Of a stretch of 64,000 bases of DNA, positions 327 to 25,804 are shown in pieces. Source of the stretch: Halostagnicola sp. A-GB9-2. GTDB lineage: Archaea; Halobacteriota; Halobacteria; Halobacteriales; Natrialbaceae. Where the stretch lies: assembly GCF_030068615.1 (NCBI RefSeq), contig NZ_JASJOC010000001.1:875045-939044 (forward strand), read 5' to 3'. The position numbers and the translations under genes were made by a program. The notes beneath the pieces were generated by a model. It was not told where the DNA came from. It saw only the letters and a list, made by a program, of their open reading frames with translations, and made no database searches. Numbering within the stretch: position 1 is the first letter of the stretch; each line of letters opens with the position of its first letter.

Positions 327-347
327 TGTTGTAATATTACCTCTCAC
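327..347 (+). promoter_or_regulatory. Operator-like motif shared with the GH15/TrmB intergenic region
   Basis: The site reads TGTTGTAATATT-N3-TCTCAC and contains the perfect 10-bp palindrome GTAATATTAC (331-340). The same motif occurs at 3788-3808. It lies in the 308-bp divergent gap between the lipoprotein and the MalK-type ATPase, about 25 bp upstream of a TATA-like TTTTAC (371-376) that would serve a leaderless ATG at 400. The TrmB-family regulator encoded at 3971 is the obvious candidate binder (inference). Confidence 0.5.
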
Positions 348-399
348 ATTCCGATTTTTGGGAAAGGGTTTTACGCCCCCTCGACGAACCAGTGGGCAA

Positions 400-1536
400 A
401 TGGCACGAGTCAGGGTCGAATCGCTCCGAAAGGAGTACGACGTTGGAACGGTCGTCGCCGTCGACGACCTGAACCTCGAGATCGAAGACGGCGAGTTCGT
501 CACCGTCGTCGGACCGTCGGGATGTGGAAAAACGACAACGCTCCGGATGCTAGCGGGGCTCGAGGAACCGACATCGGGAACGATCTCGATCGGCGCGGAG
601 GACGTAACGGACGTGCACGCGAAAAACCGCGACGTCGCGATGGTGTTCCAGAACTACGCGCTGTACCCGCACAAGACCGTCTTCGAAAACATGGCGTTCG
701 GGCTCCGGATGAGCACCGACATGAACGAGGCCGAACGGGAACGACAGGTCGTCGAAACCGCCGAAATGATGGACATCGAAGGATTGCTGGAGGACAAACC
801 CGACCAGCTCTCGGGCGGGCAGAAACAACGCGTCGCGCTCGGGCGGGCGATCGTCCGCGAACCGGACGTGTTTCTCTTCGACGAGCCGCTTTCGAACCTC
901 GACGCCAAGCTTCGAACGACGATGCGCGCGGAGATTCAGCGCCTCCAGAACGAACTCGGGATCACGGCCGTCTACGTCACCCACGACCAGCACGAGGCGA
1001 TGACGATGGGTGACCGCATCGTCATCCTCGAGGGCGGAGAGCTCCAACAGCTCGGAAAGCCGACTGACGTCTATGAAAATCCCGCCAACGAGTTCGTCGG
1101 CGGATTTATCGGCTCGCCATCGATGAACTTCGTCGACGTAGAGGGGGACACTCGGGGAGATACCGTCCACCTGACGGGACTCGAGGGCGAGTTCGACTTC
1201 GAACTCTCGAGGGCGTACGTGGATCAACACGTCGATTCCCTCAGTTCGAACCGGTACACGCTGGGAATCCGCCCGGAGAACGTCGTATTCACCGACGACG
1301 ATCGAAACTCGATCACCGCACGCGTTTCGGTCGTCGAACCAGTCGGCTCGGACAACTTCCTGCACCTCGATATCGCGGGCGAGTTCATCGCTCGAGTCGA
1401 TCCGGCTATCGAACCCCAGCCTGGTGAAGACGTGACGCTCACGTTCGACGAGGACGATATCCACCTCTTCGATTCCGAAACCGGCCGCGATCTCCTCGGC
1501 TCGTCCGAAGAGCCCCAGGCGATGGTAACGTCCTGA
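400..1536 (+). CDS. Sugar-type ABC transporter ATP-binding protein (MalK/UgpC family)
   Basis: A 378-aa cytoplasmic ATPase that would energise import of a sugar or polyol. Visible motifs: Walker [10 protein letters not shown] (residues 38-46), Q-loop in [10 protein letters not shown], signature LSGGQ (137-141), Walker B with FDEP (160-163), switch His in YVTHDQ, then a C-terminal TOBE/OB regulatory region with GIRPENV. Length matches the MalK/UgpC family. The frame is open further upstream, but conservation starts at ATG 400 (MARVRVESL), which also has a TATA-like box about 27 nt upstream. Context (GH15 hydrolase, TrmB regulator, divergent lipoprotein) suggests malto-oligosaccharide or glucan uptake. 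The permeases are not in the window and presumably lie beyond position 1. Confidence 0.93.
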
Positions 1537-1589
1537 ACCGAAAACAACCGCGCGATCGACTGCAAAACGAAATTCTCGCCGAATCTCCC

Positions 1590-3752
1590 TTACTCCCGCA
1601 GCGACGCCTTCGTTCCGACGGTCGACCCCTCGAGATCCTCGAGCGCGGTTCTCGTCGCGAGACCTAACGCGTGAGGCCACCCCAGCGGCGTCGCACAGTC
1701 GGGAGTTCCGTCGTCGAACACCTGTTCGGGGAGGTACCCACCGTCGAATCGGAGCGAACCGCCCGGTTCAACCGCTGCGAGGAGTTCTTCGGCTCGCTCG
1801 CCGAACTCCCCGGCCGCGTCGTGGCCGTTCGCCGCGAGAAGCTCCTCGAGTTCCACCCCGGCGTGGGCACCCCACGCCGTCGTCACAGTCCAGATCTTCG
1901 GCTCGTCCTGGTCCCGAATCCGCCACGGATCGTCCTCGAATCTCGCTATTCCCTCGACCGGTCCGTCGGGGTTCCGCCAAAGTCCCTCGATCGTCGTTTC
2001 AAAGTGAGAAACAAGCCGATCGAGTCGTTCGTTGTCGACACCCGCGCGACCAGATTCGCCGTCGACGTCGCCGTCGCCGTCCCGCTCGAGCCGGTCGTAC
2101 TCGTTGTGCGCCGACGCGAGCGCAAACGTGCTACCGTCCAGCCGATCGTCGACGGTTTCATCGTCGAGTCGGAGGGCGTAGATTCCGCGTTCCGGGACCC
2201 ACAAGTCCTCGAGAGCACCGTAAACCCCCCGAGCGCGTTCGGCGGCGGTCTCGCGAACGCTCTCCTCGAGCGGCGCGCGGGCGATAGCCGCGTAGGCCTC
2301 GAGAAACGTCGCCGCAGTGTGAGTGAACCGCCCCGTCATGTTCTCCCAGGCGTTCTGGACGCGGGTCGGCAGGCCGTCGTCCTCAAGCGAGGCATCGAGG
2401 CCATCCATTGCGGCGAGCAGCGAGTCGCGGACGCGCTCGTCCGATGGATCGACGATGCGGAGGTAGGTCGCGAGGTACGTCACGACACTCGCGGTCTGGT
2501 CGGCCTGATACTCCGCCGCCGGTTCCGAACCGTCCTCGAGCCGACCGTTCGCCCAACCGGGCGCGAGACGACCGCTGTGGGGCCATACCCGGTGTGGCCA
2601 GGTGCCGTCGGAGCGCTGGGTCTCGATGTAGAACTGTGCGCTTTCCTCGTGCCAGTCCTCGAGCCCGAGGCCGGCGCGACGGTCCGCGGCGAGCAGGAAC
2701 CGCGAGATTTCGGCGTCGTCGCGGAACCACGTGTAGCCGTAGCCGCCGGAGTATCGATAGTACGGGTCGAATTCGGGGCCAGCGATTCGAGAGCCACTCG
2801 AGGCCCGCAACAGCTGAAGGGTCCGAAGGTCCTCGAACGCGCCCGCCACGTCTGCATTCGTGAGAGAGTCCCGTCCCAAACCGAGACGCCGTACCTGCGC
2901 TCGACCCGCCTCGAATAGCGACTCGCGAGTCGTGTAATCGGCCGCACCGGCACGGACGCACTCGAGGGCCTCGCATCGGGTCCGCTCGTCGGCGTCGGTG
3001 AGAAGCGTGGCGACCGTCGTCCGCGGGGTCGACCCCTCGAGCTCGATCTCCGCCATGGCGATCGGACTGAGACGGCCGTCCTCGTAGCGACCGTCGTCGG
3101 ACGCGCGCGGGAGCGTCGTCGGCTCGGATTCGAGGAGTTCGTCGAACGTTTCCGGGACCTGTCCTGTCACCTCGAGCCCCGTCGACGCGGTGAGAACGTC
3201 CCGTTCGCTGTCGTGGTGGACCTCAACGGCGTCGTCGTGCCAGAGCTGACCGACCCGACCGGCTCGACCGTCGGGTGCGAAGCCGAGACAGGCCTGAAGC
3301 GTGATATCTACGGCGTTAACGTCGGTGTCGACTTCCGTCTTCGCCGTCCCTTCCGACGGCGCATCGCGTTTGCGGTCCGCCTCCTCGGATTCGGTCTCGA
3401 GGACGAAATGTGTGAGATGGAGTCGACCGAGCGTCAGATCGTACTGTGAAATCGCGTACTCGCCGACGTGGTGAGTGGTTTCGACGACGGCAGTTCCGTC
3501 GACGTAGCGCTGGGTTCCGCCATCGAACCAGTGGACGCTCTCGCCCACGTCGATACCGAACCGCGATCGGTCGATTCCGACCAGTCCCGAAAGTGGATAC
3601 GAGTAGTCGCTAATAGCGCCCTCGGGCGACACGAAAACGAGTCGATCGTCGAGACCGGAAAACAGCCCCTCCGTCGACCGACGCTCGCCAGCGAAGCGGC
3701 GATCGCTTCCCCGAACGCGCTTGAAGTCGTTCAGGGCGGAATGTAGTGTCAT
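1590..3752 (-). CDS. Glycoside hydrolase family 15 protein (glucoamylase / glucan 1,4-alpha-glucosidase type)
   Basis: A 720-aa protein with an N-terminal beta-rich region (about 1-270) and a C-terminal (alpha/alpha)6 barrel typical of archaeal GH15. Seen: YGYTWFRDDAE (339-348), QRSDGTWPHRVWP, QADQTASVV, and the likely acid/base pair Glu470 (in AWEN) and Glu676 (in LPEQVFDDG). No signal peptide, so it is probably intracellular, cleaving glucose from the non-reducing ends of imported oligosaccharides or related glucans. ATG 3752 is supported by a TATA-like TTTAAT about 29 nt upstream (3778-3784), with the shared operator motif directly beyond it. Trehalose or dextran-type substrates cannot be excluded. 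Confidence 0.9.
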   Translation of the reverse strand: MTLHSALNDFKRVRGSDRRFAGERRSTEGLFSGLDDRLVFVSPEGAISDYSYPLSGLVGIDRSRFGIDVGESVHWFDGGTQRYVDGTAVVETTHHVGEYAISQYDLTLGRLHLTHFVLETESEEADRKRDAPSEGTAKTEVDTDVNAVDITLQACLGFAPDGRAGRVGQLWHDDAVEVHHDSERDVLTASTGLEVTGQVPETFDELLESEPTTLPRASDDGRYEDGRLSPIAMAEIELEGSTPRTTVATLLTDADERTRCEALECVRAGAADYTTRESLFEAGRAQVRRLGLGRDSLTNADVAGAFEDLRTLQLLRASSGSRIAGPEFDPYYRYSGGYGYTWFRDDAEISRFLLAADRRAGLGLEDWHEESAQFYIETQRSDGTWPHRVWPHSGRLAPGWANGRLEDGSEPAAEYQADQTASVVTYLATYLRIVDPSDERVRDSLLAAMDGLDASLEDDGLPTRVQNAWENMTGRFTHTAATFLEAYAAIARAPLEESVRETAAERARGVYGALEDLWVPERGIYALRLDDETVDDRLDGSTFALASAHNEYDRLERDGDGDVDGESGRAGVDNERLDRLVSHFETTIEGLWRNPDGPVEGIARFEDDPWRIRDQDEPKIWTVTTAWGAHAGVELEELLAANGHDAAGEFGERAEELLAAVEPGGSLRFDGGYLPEQVFDDGTPDCATPLGWPHALGLATRTALEDLEGSTVGTKASLRE

Positions 3753-3787
3753 TGTATCTCACCAGTACGTCCGCGAGGATTAAAGTT

Positions 3788-3808
3788 TGTTGTAATATTT
3801 ATTCTCAC
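3788..3808 (+). promoter_or_regulatory. Second copy of the sugar-module operator-like motif
   Basis: TGTTGTAATATT-N3-TCTCAC, matching 327-347 at all 18 specified bases. It abuts the TATA-like box of the GH15 gene on its upstream (BRE) side and lies 160 bp before the TrmB-family gene. A factor bound here could control the GH15 gene and perhaps its own gene. Binding by the TrmB-like protein is inferred. Confidence 0.5.
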
Positions 3809-3970
3809 TTTTCGCCCGCGCTTCGCCCGACGTTCTCGCCCGTTCGTTCCATCGATCGCAAAACCGCACCAACAGCAGATTGGATACCAACGGACCGGCC
3901 TCGCCATCGTCACCGAGCGACAGCGAATCTTTTTCAGGTGGCGACCCAATCTGTGACGTACTGCATATAC

Positions 3971-5032
3971 ATGGATCAAGACGGGCTCACCGACCTGCTC
4001 GAGCGATTCGGGCTCTCCGAGAAGGAGATCGACACGTACCTCGCGATTCTCGAACACGGAGAGTCGAAAGCGAGCACGATTTCGGACGCCGCCGACGTCT
4101 CCAAGCGATACGTCTACAGCATCAGCGAAGCGCTCGAGAAACGGGGGTTCGTCGAGGTCGACGATCACGCCGTGCCGACCGTTATCAAACCGGTTCCGCC
4201 CGAAGAAGTCGTTGATCGCTTAACTGAAAGCGTCGAAGCGATCGAGCCGGGGATCCGATCGCGTTACACCGCGACCGAGCGCACCGGCGAGCAGTTCGAG
4301 GTGATCAAGTCCCGCCAGACGGTTCTCAAACGGATCGAGACGTTGCTACGGAACGCAGAAACGGAGGTCACCCTTTCTCTGCCAACCGAGGTACTCCCCC
4401 AGATCAGATCGACGCTCGAGGAAACGGTCGATCGCGGCGTTCTCGTCTTGCTTTTGCTCAGTGCGACCGACGAGAACGACCCGGATATCGCGACGTTTAC
4501 CGGGACGGCGAGTACGGTTCGAACCTGGGACGCGCTGGTCCCGACGATGATGACGACCGACCAGCGCCACGGGCTACTCGCACCCAGCCAGTTGCTGACG
4601 AGTACGACCAGCGAGACGAAAGCGATCGCGCTTAGCCAGGAGCAGTTGGTTCCCGTCTTCGTCGGCTCGTTTCTGGCGAACTACTGGCCGACCGCCGACG
4701 AACGATACGTCACAACACCGGCGACGCTCCCCGAAACCTACGACGGGTTTCGAAACGCGGTGTTTCAGGTCGCGCTCCACGAGGCCGCCAACACTTCGCT
4801 CGAGGCCACGGTCACGGGTTCACCTGTCGGCGAACGGGACCTCCCCTCGACGCTTTCGGGTCCCGTACTCTCCGTCCAGCAGAGTCTCGTCCGGCCCGTC
4901 ACCTCGACGTTCCCCGTCGAGAACTCCTTCGAGATCGACGTCGACGGGGAGCGGTACAAAATCGGCGGGAGAGGCGCGTTCCTCGAGGATTTCGAAGCTG
5001 AGTCGGTCGCACTCGAATACCTCGAGGAGTGA
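3971..5032 (+). CDS. TrmB-family sugar-responsive transcriptional regulator
   Basis: A 353-aa protein. Residues about 1-85 form a TrmB-type winged helix (LSEKEIDTYLAILEHG, ASTISDAADVSKRYVYS as recognition region), followed by a short helical linker and a C-terminal sugar-binding-like domain as in TrmB (PF11495-type). The open frame extends upstream to 3746, but MDQDGLTDLLERFGLSEKE at 3971 is the family-typical start. It is encoded next to the GH15 hydrolase and ABC ATPase, so it probably senses a sugar and controls this module through the repeated TGTTGTAATATT motif. Whether it activates or represses is not visible. Confidence 0.9.
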   Translation: MDQDGLTDLLERFGLSEKEIDTYLAILEHGESKASTISDAADVSKRYVYSISEALEKRGFVEVDDHAVPTVIKPVPPEEVVDRLTESVEAIEPGIRSRYTATERTGEQFEVIKSRQTVLKRIETLLRNAETEVTLSLPTEVLPQIRSTLEETVDRGVLVLLLLSATDENDPDIATFTGTASTVRTWDALVPTMMTTDQRHGLLAPSQLLTSTTSETKAIALSQEQLVPVFVGSFLANYWPTADERYVTTPATLPETYDGFRNAVFQVALHEAANTSLEATVTGSPVGERDLPSTLSGPVLSVQQSLVRPVTSTFPVENSFEIDVDGERYKIGGRGAFLEDFEAESVALEYLEE

Positions 5033-24406: not shown

Positions 24407-24565
24407 TTACCCGGTAATAAACCCACCCGGCGGACAGTGTTTCGCCGGCCGGCCGTCGTCAGTCGTCGCCGGTTCGTTCCCGAACTCGGGCGAGTGACGG
24501 ATCGTTCGTCGGACTTTGGCTCCTCGTCGTGCGATTCGAGTCGTGAGGACTAGTAGTTTACTCAT
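24407..24565 (-). CDS. Possible 52-aa basic protein
   Basis: ATG 24565 gives MSKLLVLTTRIARRGAKVRR, then an acidic/polar part and a C-terminal KHCPPGGFITG. A TATA-like AATACTTATG on the minus strand (about 24591-24600) is 28-35 nt upstream, fitting a leaderless transcript. The start codon lies inside a palindrome. No homology recognised; codon bias is weak, so this may be non-coding. Confidence 0.4.
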   Translation of the reverse strand: MSKLLVLTTRIARRGAKVRRTIRHSPEFGNEPATTDDGRPAKHCPPGGFITG

Positions 24566-24575
24566 ACATGAGTAA
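24558..24575 (+). promoter_or_regulatory. Palindrome TTACTCAT-AC-ATGAGTAA
   Basis: Perfect 8-bp arms with a 2-bp spacer. It contains TACT-N7-GAGTA, the consensus I recall for the Halobacterium TrmB regulator of central metabolism. It overlaps the proposed start of the 52-aa ORF. Could be a regulator site or a chance palindrome. Confidence 0.35.
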
Positions 24576-24820: not shown

Positions 24821-25804
24821 ATGGAACTCGATCTCATCGTCTCGGAACTCCACGGGGAGGACCCGACCGATCTCGCGAAAGAAGCGGAATCGCTCGGTTA
24901 CGACGGGCTCTGGCTGACGGAGCTCTGGGGCGAAAACGCCGTCGTCCAGCTCACCGAGATGGCGATCGCGACCGAGGATATCGGTCTCGGAACGGCTATC
25001 GTCAACGTCTATTCGCGCTCGCCCGCCGTGCTCGCGATGACCGCCAACTCTCTCGAGCGAGCGTCCGACGGCCGGTTCGTGCTGGGAACCGGCGTGAGTA
25101 CGAAGAAGGTGATCGAAGACCTCCACGGCGAGTCGTTCGACCGGCCGGTTCGGCGAGCCCACGAGACGATCGAACTCGTCCGAAAATTCACCGCTGGCGA
25201 CGGCGACCGCGTCCGGTACGATGGCGAACTCATCGATGTCGCGGATTTTCCCGCGCTCGAGGCCGACGTGCCGATCTATCACGCCGGACTCGGGCCCGCG
25301 AACCGCCGCGTCGTCGGCCGGCTCTGTGACGGGTGGATCCCGCACAATATCCCGTTTTCGGGACTCGAGGAGGCGTTCGAGACCGTCGCCGAGGCCGCAC
25401 GGGAACGGGACAGAGATCCAGACGAGATTACCGTCGCACCCTACGTTCCGACGGCGGCGAGCGAGGATCGGGAACTGGCTCGAGAAACGATGCGACAACA
25501 CGTCGCTTACTACGTCGGGAGCGGCGAGGGGTATCGAAAGGCCGTCGCGACGAAATACGAGGACACCGCGGAGCGAATCGCCAACGCCTGGCGGAACGGG
25601 GCTCGAGACGAGGCGACGGGGATGGTTACCGACGAGATGGTCGACGATCTCGGCGTCGCCGGCACCCCTGAGACGGTACGGAACCGACTTCGAAAGGTGG
25701 CGGAGGAGACGATCATCGACCGGCCGATCGTCGTCGTTCCCGAACCGGCGACTGCCGACCTCCGCGAGGAAACGATCCGAGAAGCGGCACCCGAGCGGTT
25801 CTAA
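24821..25804 (+). CDS. LLM-class, F420-dependent-type oxidoreductase (TIGR04024-like)
   Basis: A 327-aa luciferase-like TIM-barrel flavin/F420 enzyme. Seen: ESLGYDGLWLTELWGENA, GLGTAIVNVYSRSPAVLAMTA, LERASDGRFVLGTGVS and the late GTPETVRNRLRKV. Haloarchaea make F420 and carry several such paralogues, so F420 is the expected cofactor. Substrate unknown. ATG at 24821 (MELDLIVSELHGED). Confidence 0.88.
   Translation: MELDLIVSELHGEDPTDLAKEAESLGYDGLWLTELWGENAVVQLTEMAIATEDIGLGTAIVNVYSRSPAVLAMTANSLERASDGRFVLGTGVSTKKVIEDLHGESFDRPVRRAHETIELVRKFTAGDGDRVRYDGELIDVADFPALEADVPIYHAGLGPANRRVVGRLCDGWIPHNIPFSGLEEAFETVAEAARERDRDPDEITVAPYVPTAASEDRELARETMRQHVAYYVGSGEGYRKAVATKYEDTAERIANAWRNGARDEATGMVTDEMVDDLGVAGTPETVRNRLRKVAEETIIDRPIVVVPEPATADLREETIREAAPERF

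Follow-up and report, generated by a model that had tools for sequence, protein, structure and literature searches.

A candidate starch-regulon operator in Halostagnicola, its presence tied to a TrmB-family paralogue

The window analysed here, 64,000 nucleotides of the Halostagnicola sp. A-GB9-2 genome (contig NZ_JASJOC010000001.1), enters a sugar module midway and carries the motif TGTTGTAATATT-N3-TCTCAC in the malK and gh15 promoter regions, at 327-347 and 3788-3808. Which genes does this motif control, and which protein reads it? The initial annotation had proposed a single operator for the TrmB-like protein encoded next door. Our comparison of related genomes supports that proposal: a site is found in 52/52 gh15 promoters and 33/33 near-group malK promoters, exact matches occur only in genomes with trmB, and the gh15 site decays after trmB is lost. 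It is therefore highly probable that the motif serves as operator of a starch/maltodextrin regulon comprising malEFG, malK, gh15 and the gene of a secreted alpha-amylase, and the likeliest protein to bind it is P0001, the TrmB paralogue that 3971-5032 encodes. The sequences themselves establish where the sites are, that they are conserved at fixed distances from start codons, that they are confined to trmB genomes and that they decay after trmB loss. The operators and genes concerned are as follows.

103-122, + strand: third operator copy, TGATGTATTATGACTTCATA, malE promoter; ends 11 bp from the malE ATG and abuts the downstream side of the TATA-like box
327-347, + strand: operator copy of the malK promoter, TGTTGTAATATTACCTCTCAC; core palindrome GTAATATTAC at 331-340
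3788-3808, + strand (opposite to gh15): operator copy of the gh15 promoter, TGTTGTAATATTTATTCTCAC; 35 bp 5' of the gh15 ATG
1-91, - strand: 5' end of the gene for a MalE-like sugar-binding lipoprotein; the rest lies at L003:12877-14091, followed by malF and malG
400-1536, + strand: malK, ATP-binding cassette (ABC) transporter ATPase with TOBE/OB domains (Pfam PF00005, PF08402, PF17912)
1590-3752, - strand: gh15, glycoside hydrolase 15-like, oligosaccharide amylase/glucoamylase type (NCBIfam TIGR01577, partial and below cut-off)
3971-5032, + strand: TrmB-family regulator P0001 (353 aa), predicted operator binder (PF01978 and PF11495, SKRYVYS signature, equivalents of N305, G320 and E326)

The two copies lie 3.4 kb apart, and their coordinates, their identity at 18/18 specified bases and the palindromic core of the first copy were all reproduced. 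A search for random genomic copies, named beforehand as a way to refute the operator, found no extra ones: allowing up to 3 mismatches, the pair at 327-347 and 3788-3808 stood alone in the window (shuffles average 0.01) and in the whole genome of 4,679,536 bases (reversed-pattern control 0). An exact 18-mer is expected by chance at ~1e-5 in this genome. In the relatives, the malK and gh15 sites take the forms TGGTGTAATATTACTTCTCA and TGTTGWAAAATGTATTCYYA, respectively, and the spacer between the half-motifs is constrained, contrary to the free N3 first assumed. The operator is degenerate and partly palindromic, approximately TGATGTAWTAWTACWTCA, and TGTTGTAATATT-N3-TCTCAC is one of its forms.

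The annotated places also needed adjustment. The gap between the lipoprotein gene and malK was confirmed, with the lipoprotein refined to a MalE-like binding protein whose gene starts at window position 91; both promoter sites stood, and a third, more divergent copy at 103-122 had been overlooked. It was found with a matrix built from sequence only, using 58 sites of near-group loci outside the own genus. In our scan of the own genome at E<=10, in which 150 of the 321 first-look candidates were scored, this matrix marked three places: malE, gh15 and G000:C23:210277-210294. The malE copy has the top score in both the window and, among the candidates scored, the genome; the malK site is weaker by this measure (8.9 bits, third in the window). 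The fourth copy, on another contig, lies 19 bp 5' of the start of an alpha-amylase gene (683 aa product), the only PF00128 gene detected in the genome. By eye, the N-terminus of the amylase resembles a twin-arginine translocation (Tat) signal. Amylase relatives were found in 34/125 family genomes, all 34 with a trmB orthologue. The amylase promoters were held out from the matrix, and in 29/30 of these loci (30 examined of 37 matches) a site reaches shuffle p<=0.01. Alpha-amylase genes in G090, G120 and G096 are also among the degenerate-pattern matches outside the cluster. Many of the amylase-promoter sites are more palindromic, for instance TGATGTATTATTACCTCATA, suggesting that the ideal operator lies near TGATGTAWTAWTACWTCA.

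Conservation was assessed in 125 genomes of the family. A relative of P0001 at E<=1e-40 is present in 69; we counted 65 of these as having trmB orthologues (46-92 % identity) and treated those of G077, G085, G093 and G094 as weaker paralogues. Besides the own locus, 60 orthologous loci were compared. In all 52 promoters the gh15 site is on the strand opposite to the gene, 32-36 bp from its start, with at most 5/18 mismatches. Each of the 33 near-group loci has a malK site, ~50 bp 5' of malK, and a malE site (33/33). The right end of the operator co-varies at gh15 and malK, being TTCTCA-like in the near group and TTCACA or ATCACA in the distant group. Near-group scores are high partly by construction, since the matrix was trained on near-group sites; in the held-out distant group, 13/13 gh15 and 1/2 malE promoters reach 13 bits. 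Control promoters gave no matrix matches (gdh 0/26, gad 0/31, malF 0/27, duf547 0/3; total 0/87). In the relatives, the malE, malK, gh15 and amylase sites each keep a fixed distance to the start codon. As a side observation, G020 (L084/L145) has gh15 and malEFGK on a contig other than that of trmB, with the operator at both the new and the old places.

The site at 3788-3808 lies in the gap between gh15 and trmB, as annotated, and is part of the gh15 promoter, not of that of trmB. In seven loci (L128, L129, L132, L133, L140, L141 and L142) the two genes are 2.3 kb apart, and the site stays with gh15. Autoregulation of trmB through the operator was considered and gained no support: only 1/46 and 1/15 trmB upstream regions have a match within 100 bp, and in the seven loci the best match upstream of trmB has 7-9 mismatches. 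Separately, a trmB promoter block at window 3905-3970, GAATCTTTTTCA ... CAATCNGTGANGTACTGAATAC, is conserved in near-group loci (46 aligned).

The occurrence of the site follows that of trmB. The exact pattern TGNTGWAAWATNNNWTCHYA has 60 matches in 47/125 genomes (reversed control 0), and 56/60 of these lie, counted by position, in this cluster or its moved parts. Exact matches occur in 47/65 genomes with a trmB orthologue and in 0/60 without one. When one mismatch is allowed, genomes with an orthologue have 165 matches against 24 for the control, and the 56 genomes without any relative stay at background level, with 27 matches against 21. Since gh15 tracks trmB (59/63 gh15 genomes have trmB), genome counts alone do not separate the regulator from its targets. 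A natural loss provides such a separation. Two genomes, G088 (L143) and G087 (L144), no longer have trmB, of which a fragment is retained in L143; their genus also includes several genomes that bear the site. At the gh15 place their sites score 9.2 and -5.5, respectively, against a near-group median of 29.4. The two share with the sister locus L104 an identical gdh promoter element (TTCAAATATTTACTACAGATAGCGTAATCTT), and their gad element is likewise preserved. The operator therefore follows trmB, and the gdh and gad elements do not. Control of gdh and gad by P0001 was accordingly set aside, because the promoter motifs of both genes survive the loss of trmB.

A number of observations weigh against a P0001 starch operator or narrow its support. 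The presence of trmB, gh15 and the amylase gene is confounded, and only G087 and G088 separate trmB from its targets; these are sister genomes and probably represent one shared loss event. Moreover, gh15 itself is broken in G087 (frameshifted in L144) and lacks a stop in L143. Six genomes keep a trmB orthologue without gh15 (G016, G025, G026, G042, G067 and G104); among them, a site before trmB persists only in G104, and amylase sites persist in G104 and G067. Distant-group malK sites are low with the near-group matrix, 2/12 reaching 13 bits. One amylase gene (L188) has no site. Exact matches also occur off the pathway, at L156 and at genes for solute-binding proteins of family 5 (SBP_bac_5; L157) and type 6 (Peripla_BP_6; L159). 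One-mismatch matches without a link to starch were found at L161 and L162. In these two distant-group genomes, TTTGCTGTGATATTTCTTCTTATG or a sequence near it lies between two large transducer-like open reading frames (ORFs).

As annotated, P0001 is a TrmB-family regulator: the N-terminal winged helix-turn-helix PF01978 (61.3 bits) and the C-terminal sugar-binding PF11495 (176.1 bits) both score above cut-off. With 137.2 bits against a cut-off of 500, it falls short of the haloarchaeal TrmB equivalog NF047392, for which the C35 paralogue scores 615.4. On these model scores, P0001 is a TrmB-family member distinct from the known haloarchaeal TrmB, which the C35 gene encodes. Its recognition helix reads SKRYVYS in 61/61 loci and in 6/6 plasmid relatives. 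In the accessible part of one report, Y50 and D51 of Pyrococcus furiosus TrmB are described as important for DNA binding (PMC4158304); three paralogues of P0001 read VYD or IYD at this place, like the P. furiosus protein. Residues equivalent to N305, G320 and E326 of P. furiosus TrmB, aligned with 3qph, are kept in 61/61 loci, the alignment being gapped beside N305; the N305 equivalent is retained in 2/6 plasmid relatives. The N305 equivalent in P0001 deserves attention because the available text of a second report calls this residue maltose-specific and not conserved outside hyperthermophiles (PMC10817205).

P0001 resembles the TrmB of Thermococcus litoralis and P. furiosus in its PF01978 and PF11495 domains, its position beside a maltose-type ABC transporter and its N305, G320 and E326 equivalents. 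It differs in that its predicted sites are unrelated to the operator given for those proteins, TACT-N3-AGTA (PMC4158304, accessible part), Y50-D51 is Y-S in 61/61 loci, and the proposed regulon includes gh15 and a secreted alpha-amylase gene. The haloarchaeal TrmB proteins (VNG1451C; TrmBHar, HAH_1548) share the two-domain architecture and the archaeal class of P0001. They control gluconeogenesis, and the same partial text gives the Halobacterium motif as TACT-N7-8-GAGTA (PMC4158304), from which the sites of the P0001 cluster differ; TrmBHar is described as binding a gdh promoter in Haloarcula (PMC10817205, available text). The Thermococcales regulator TrmBL1/Tgr is similar in its position-dependent repression and activation around the promoter elements and in a regulon of sugar uptake and amylases. 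Its operator is different, the glycolytic motif TATCAC-N5-GTGATA (PMC4158304, accessible part), and the proposed P0001 regulon is local, with four promoters in this genome.

The earlier suggestion of a specificity distinct from TACT-N7-GAGTA is supported, as that element sits in front of gad and a different gene encodes the canonical TrmB. In the 20-kb cluster it occurs once, as an exact match before gad (L003:9333-9348, TACTATGATACGAGTA), and is absent at malE, malK and gh15. A similar element, TACT-N8-GGTAA, lies before gdh, and both are conserved in relatives. Elsewhere in the window, a nearly palindromic canonical TrmB-type element, TACTCATACATGAGTA, is found at 24559-24574, ~250 bp before an ORF at 24821. 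With 19 exact genomic matches to the pattern of this type and 14 for the control, most copies are attributable to chance.

Could another protein bind the operators of the starch regulon? The genome encodes at least three other full-length TrmB-type regulators, and candidates for the binder are the canonical TrmB (contig C35), a further paralogue (on C36 or C10) and a regulator of sugar metabolism with global reach. We consider this unlikely, since exact matches are confined to genomes with a P0001 orthologue, the gh15 site decays where the orthologue is lost, and the canonical TrmB has its own motif, TACT-N7-8-GAGTA (PMC4158304, accessible part), intact before gad. The motif might instead be a core-promoter element shared by a class of strong promoters, a TFB recognition element (BRE) or TATA box without a specific regulator. 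In favour are its AT-richness and its location no further than 60 bp from start codons. However, we rejected this explanation as very improbable: malK has a separate conserved BRE/TATA element 12-13 bp downstream of the site, the geometry varies by gene, the site following TATA at malE and amylase but preceding it at malK and gh15, the gdh, gad, malF and duf547 promoters lack the motif, and the genome holds only two copies. Least probable of all is a recent local duplication or gene conversion without function, because although the full 18-base identity between the malK and gh15 places is found, among the loci compared, in this genome only, the flanks show no similarity by eye and each site has same-place orthologues in dozens of genomes, each with its own variant.

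Binding by P0001 thus remains the preferred explanation, and the positions of the sites suggest how it might act. The promoter elements, taken from conserved alignment blocks and assigned putative functions by position, are the following.

121-129, - strand: malE TATA-like box, CTAAATATA (alignment footprint)
360-374, + strand: malK BRE/TATA-like element, GGGAAAGGGTTTTAC (separately conserved, 12-13 bp after the operator)
3780-3787, - strand: gh15 TATA-like box, AACTTTAA (alignment footprint, adjoining the operator)

The invariant SKRYVYS recognition helix of a TrmB dimer would contact the imperfect palindrome, and DNA binding by P0001, whose N305, G320 and E326 contacts are kept, would change with a maltose-type sugar. 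At malE and amylase, the operator lies just downstream of the TATA-like box, where a bound protein should block RNA polymerase; this is the repressor position described for TrmB proteins (PMC4158304, accessible part). Our best guess for these two promoters is repression without sugar. The malK operator precedes the BRE and the gh15 operator abuts its TATA-like box from upstream. There, the same protein could activate transcription, or block TFB at the BRE. Tentatively, the SKRYVYS proteins may form an uncharacterised orthologue group with a dedicated starch regulon and a new palindromic operator near TGATGTAWTAWTACWTCA, repressing from downstream of TATA (malE, amylase), activating or blocking the BRE from upstream (malK, gh15), with per-promoter variants kept across haloarchaeal families.

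Plasmids of other families bear on this last point; of the 47 matching plasmid records, we examined 6. Those of Halorussus vallis, Halobaculum limi and Halomicrobium urmianum have the same gene set and sites, at distances of 11-12 bp for malE, 52-55 for malK and 33-36 for gh15. Some plasmid sites score low, for example 5.9 bits for Halobaculum gh15. Halomarina has the gh15 site only; in Halapricum and Halocatena a trmB relative is present but the cluster is not. No relative was found in the viral collection searched.

The module as a whole runs gdh, gad, malG, malF, malE, malK, gh15 and the TrmB-type regulator gene, the first five reaching upstream of the window (L003). We take gdh to be a glucose dehydrogenase gene and gad a gluconate dehydratase gene, named by recognition from sequence without a family match, as was the presumed aldolase gene between trmB and gdh in L143/L144. 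The ABC proteins of the module match MalE/MalK-type models best, partly below curated cut-offs; for the MalE-like protein the best NCBIfam match is PRK09474 MalE, below its cut-off. Plasmid relatives of gh15 carry the annotation glycoside hydrolase family 15.

According to the available text of a recent report, haloarchaea have about three sugar-sensing TrmB paralogues per genome, the non-canonical ones not functionally characterised as of 2024 (PMC10817205). Among the papers listed by our searches of the PMC open-licence library, no title or opening of an abstract described a haloarchaeal TrmB paralogue with a starch regulon or an operator of its own. By the comparisons above, the P0001 operator would represent a new specificity within the known TrmB family, and its assignment to this regulator is well supported. 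One uncharacterised paralogue group thereby gains a candidate operator, regulon and recognition-helix signature. With both the operator and the helix signature in hand, the change of specificity within the TrmB family becomes testable by helix and site swaps. If true, a promoter inducible by a maltose-type sugar would serve as a tool for halophiles.

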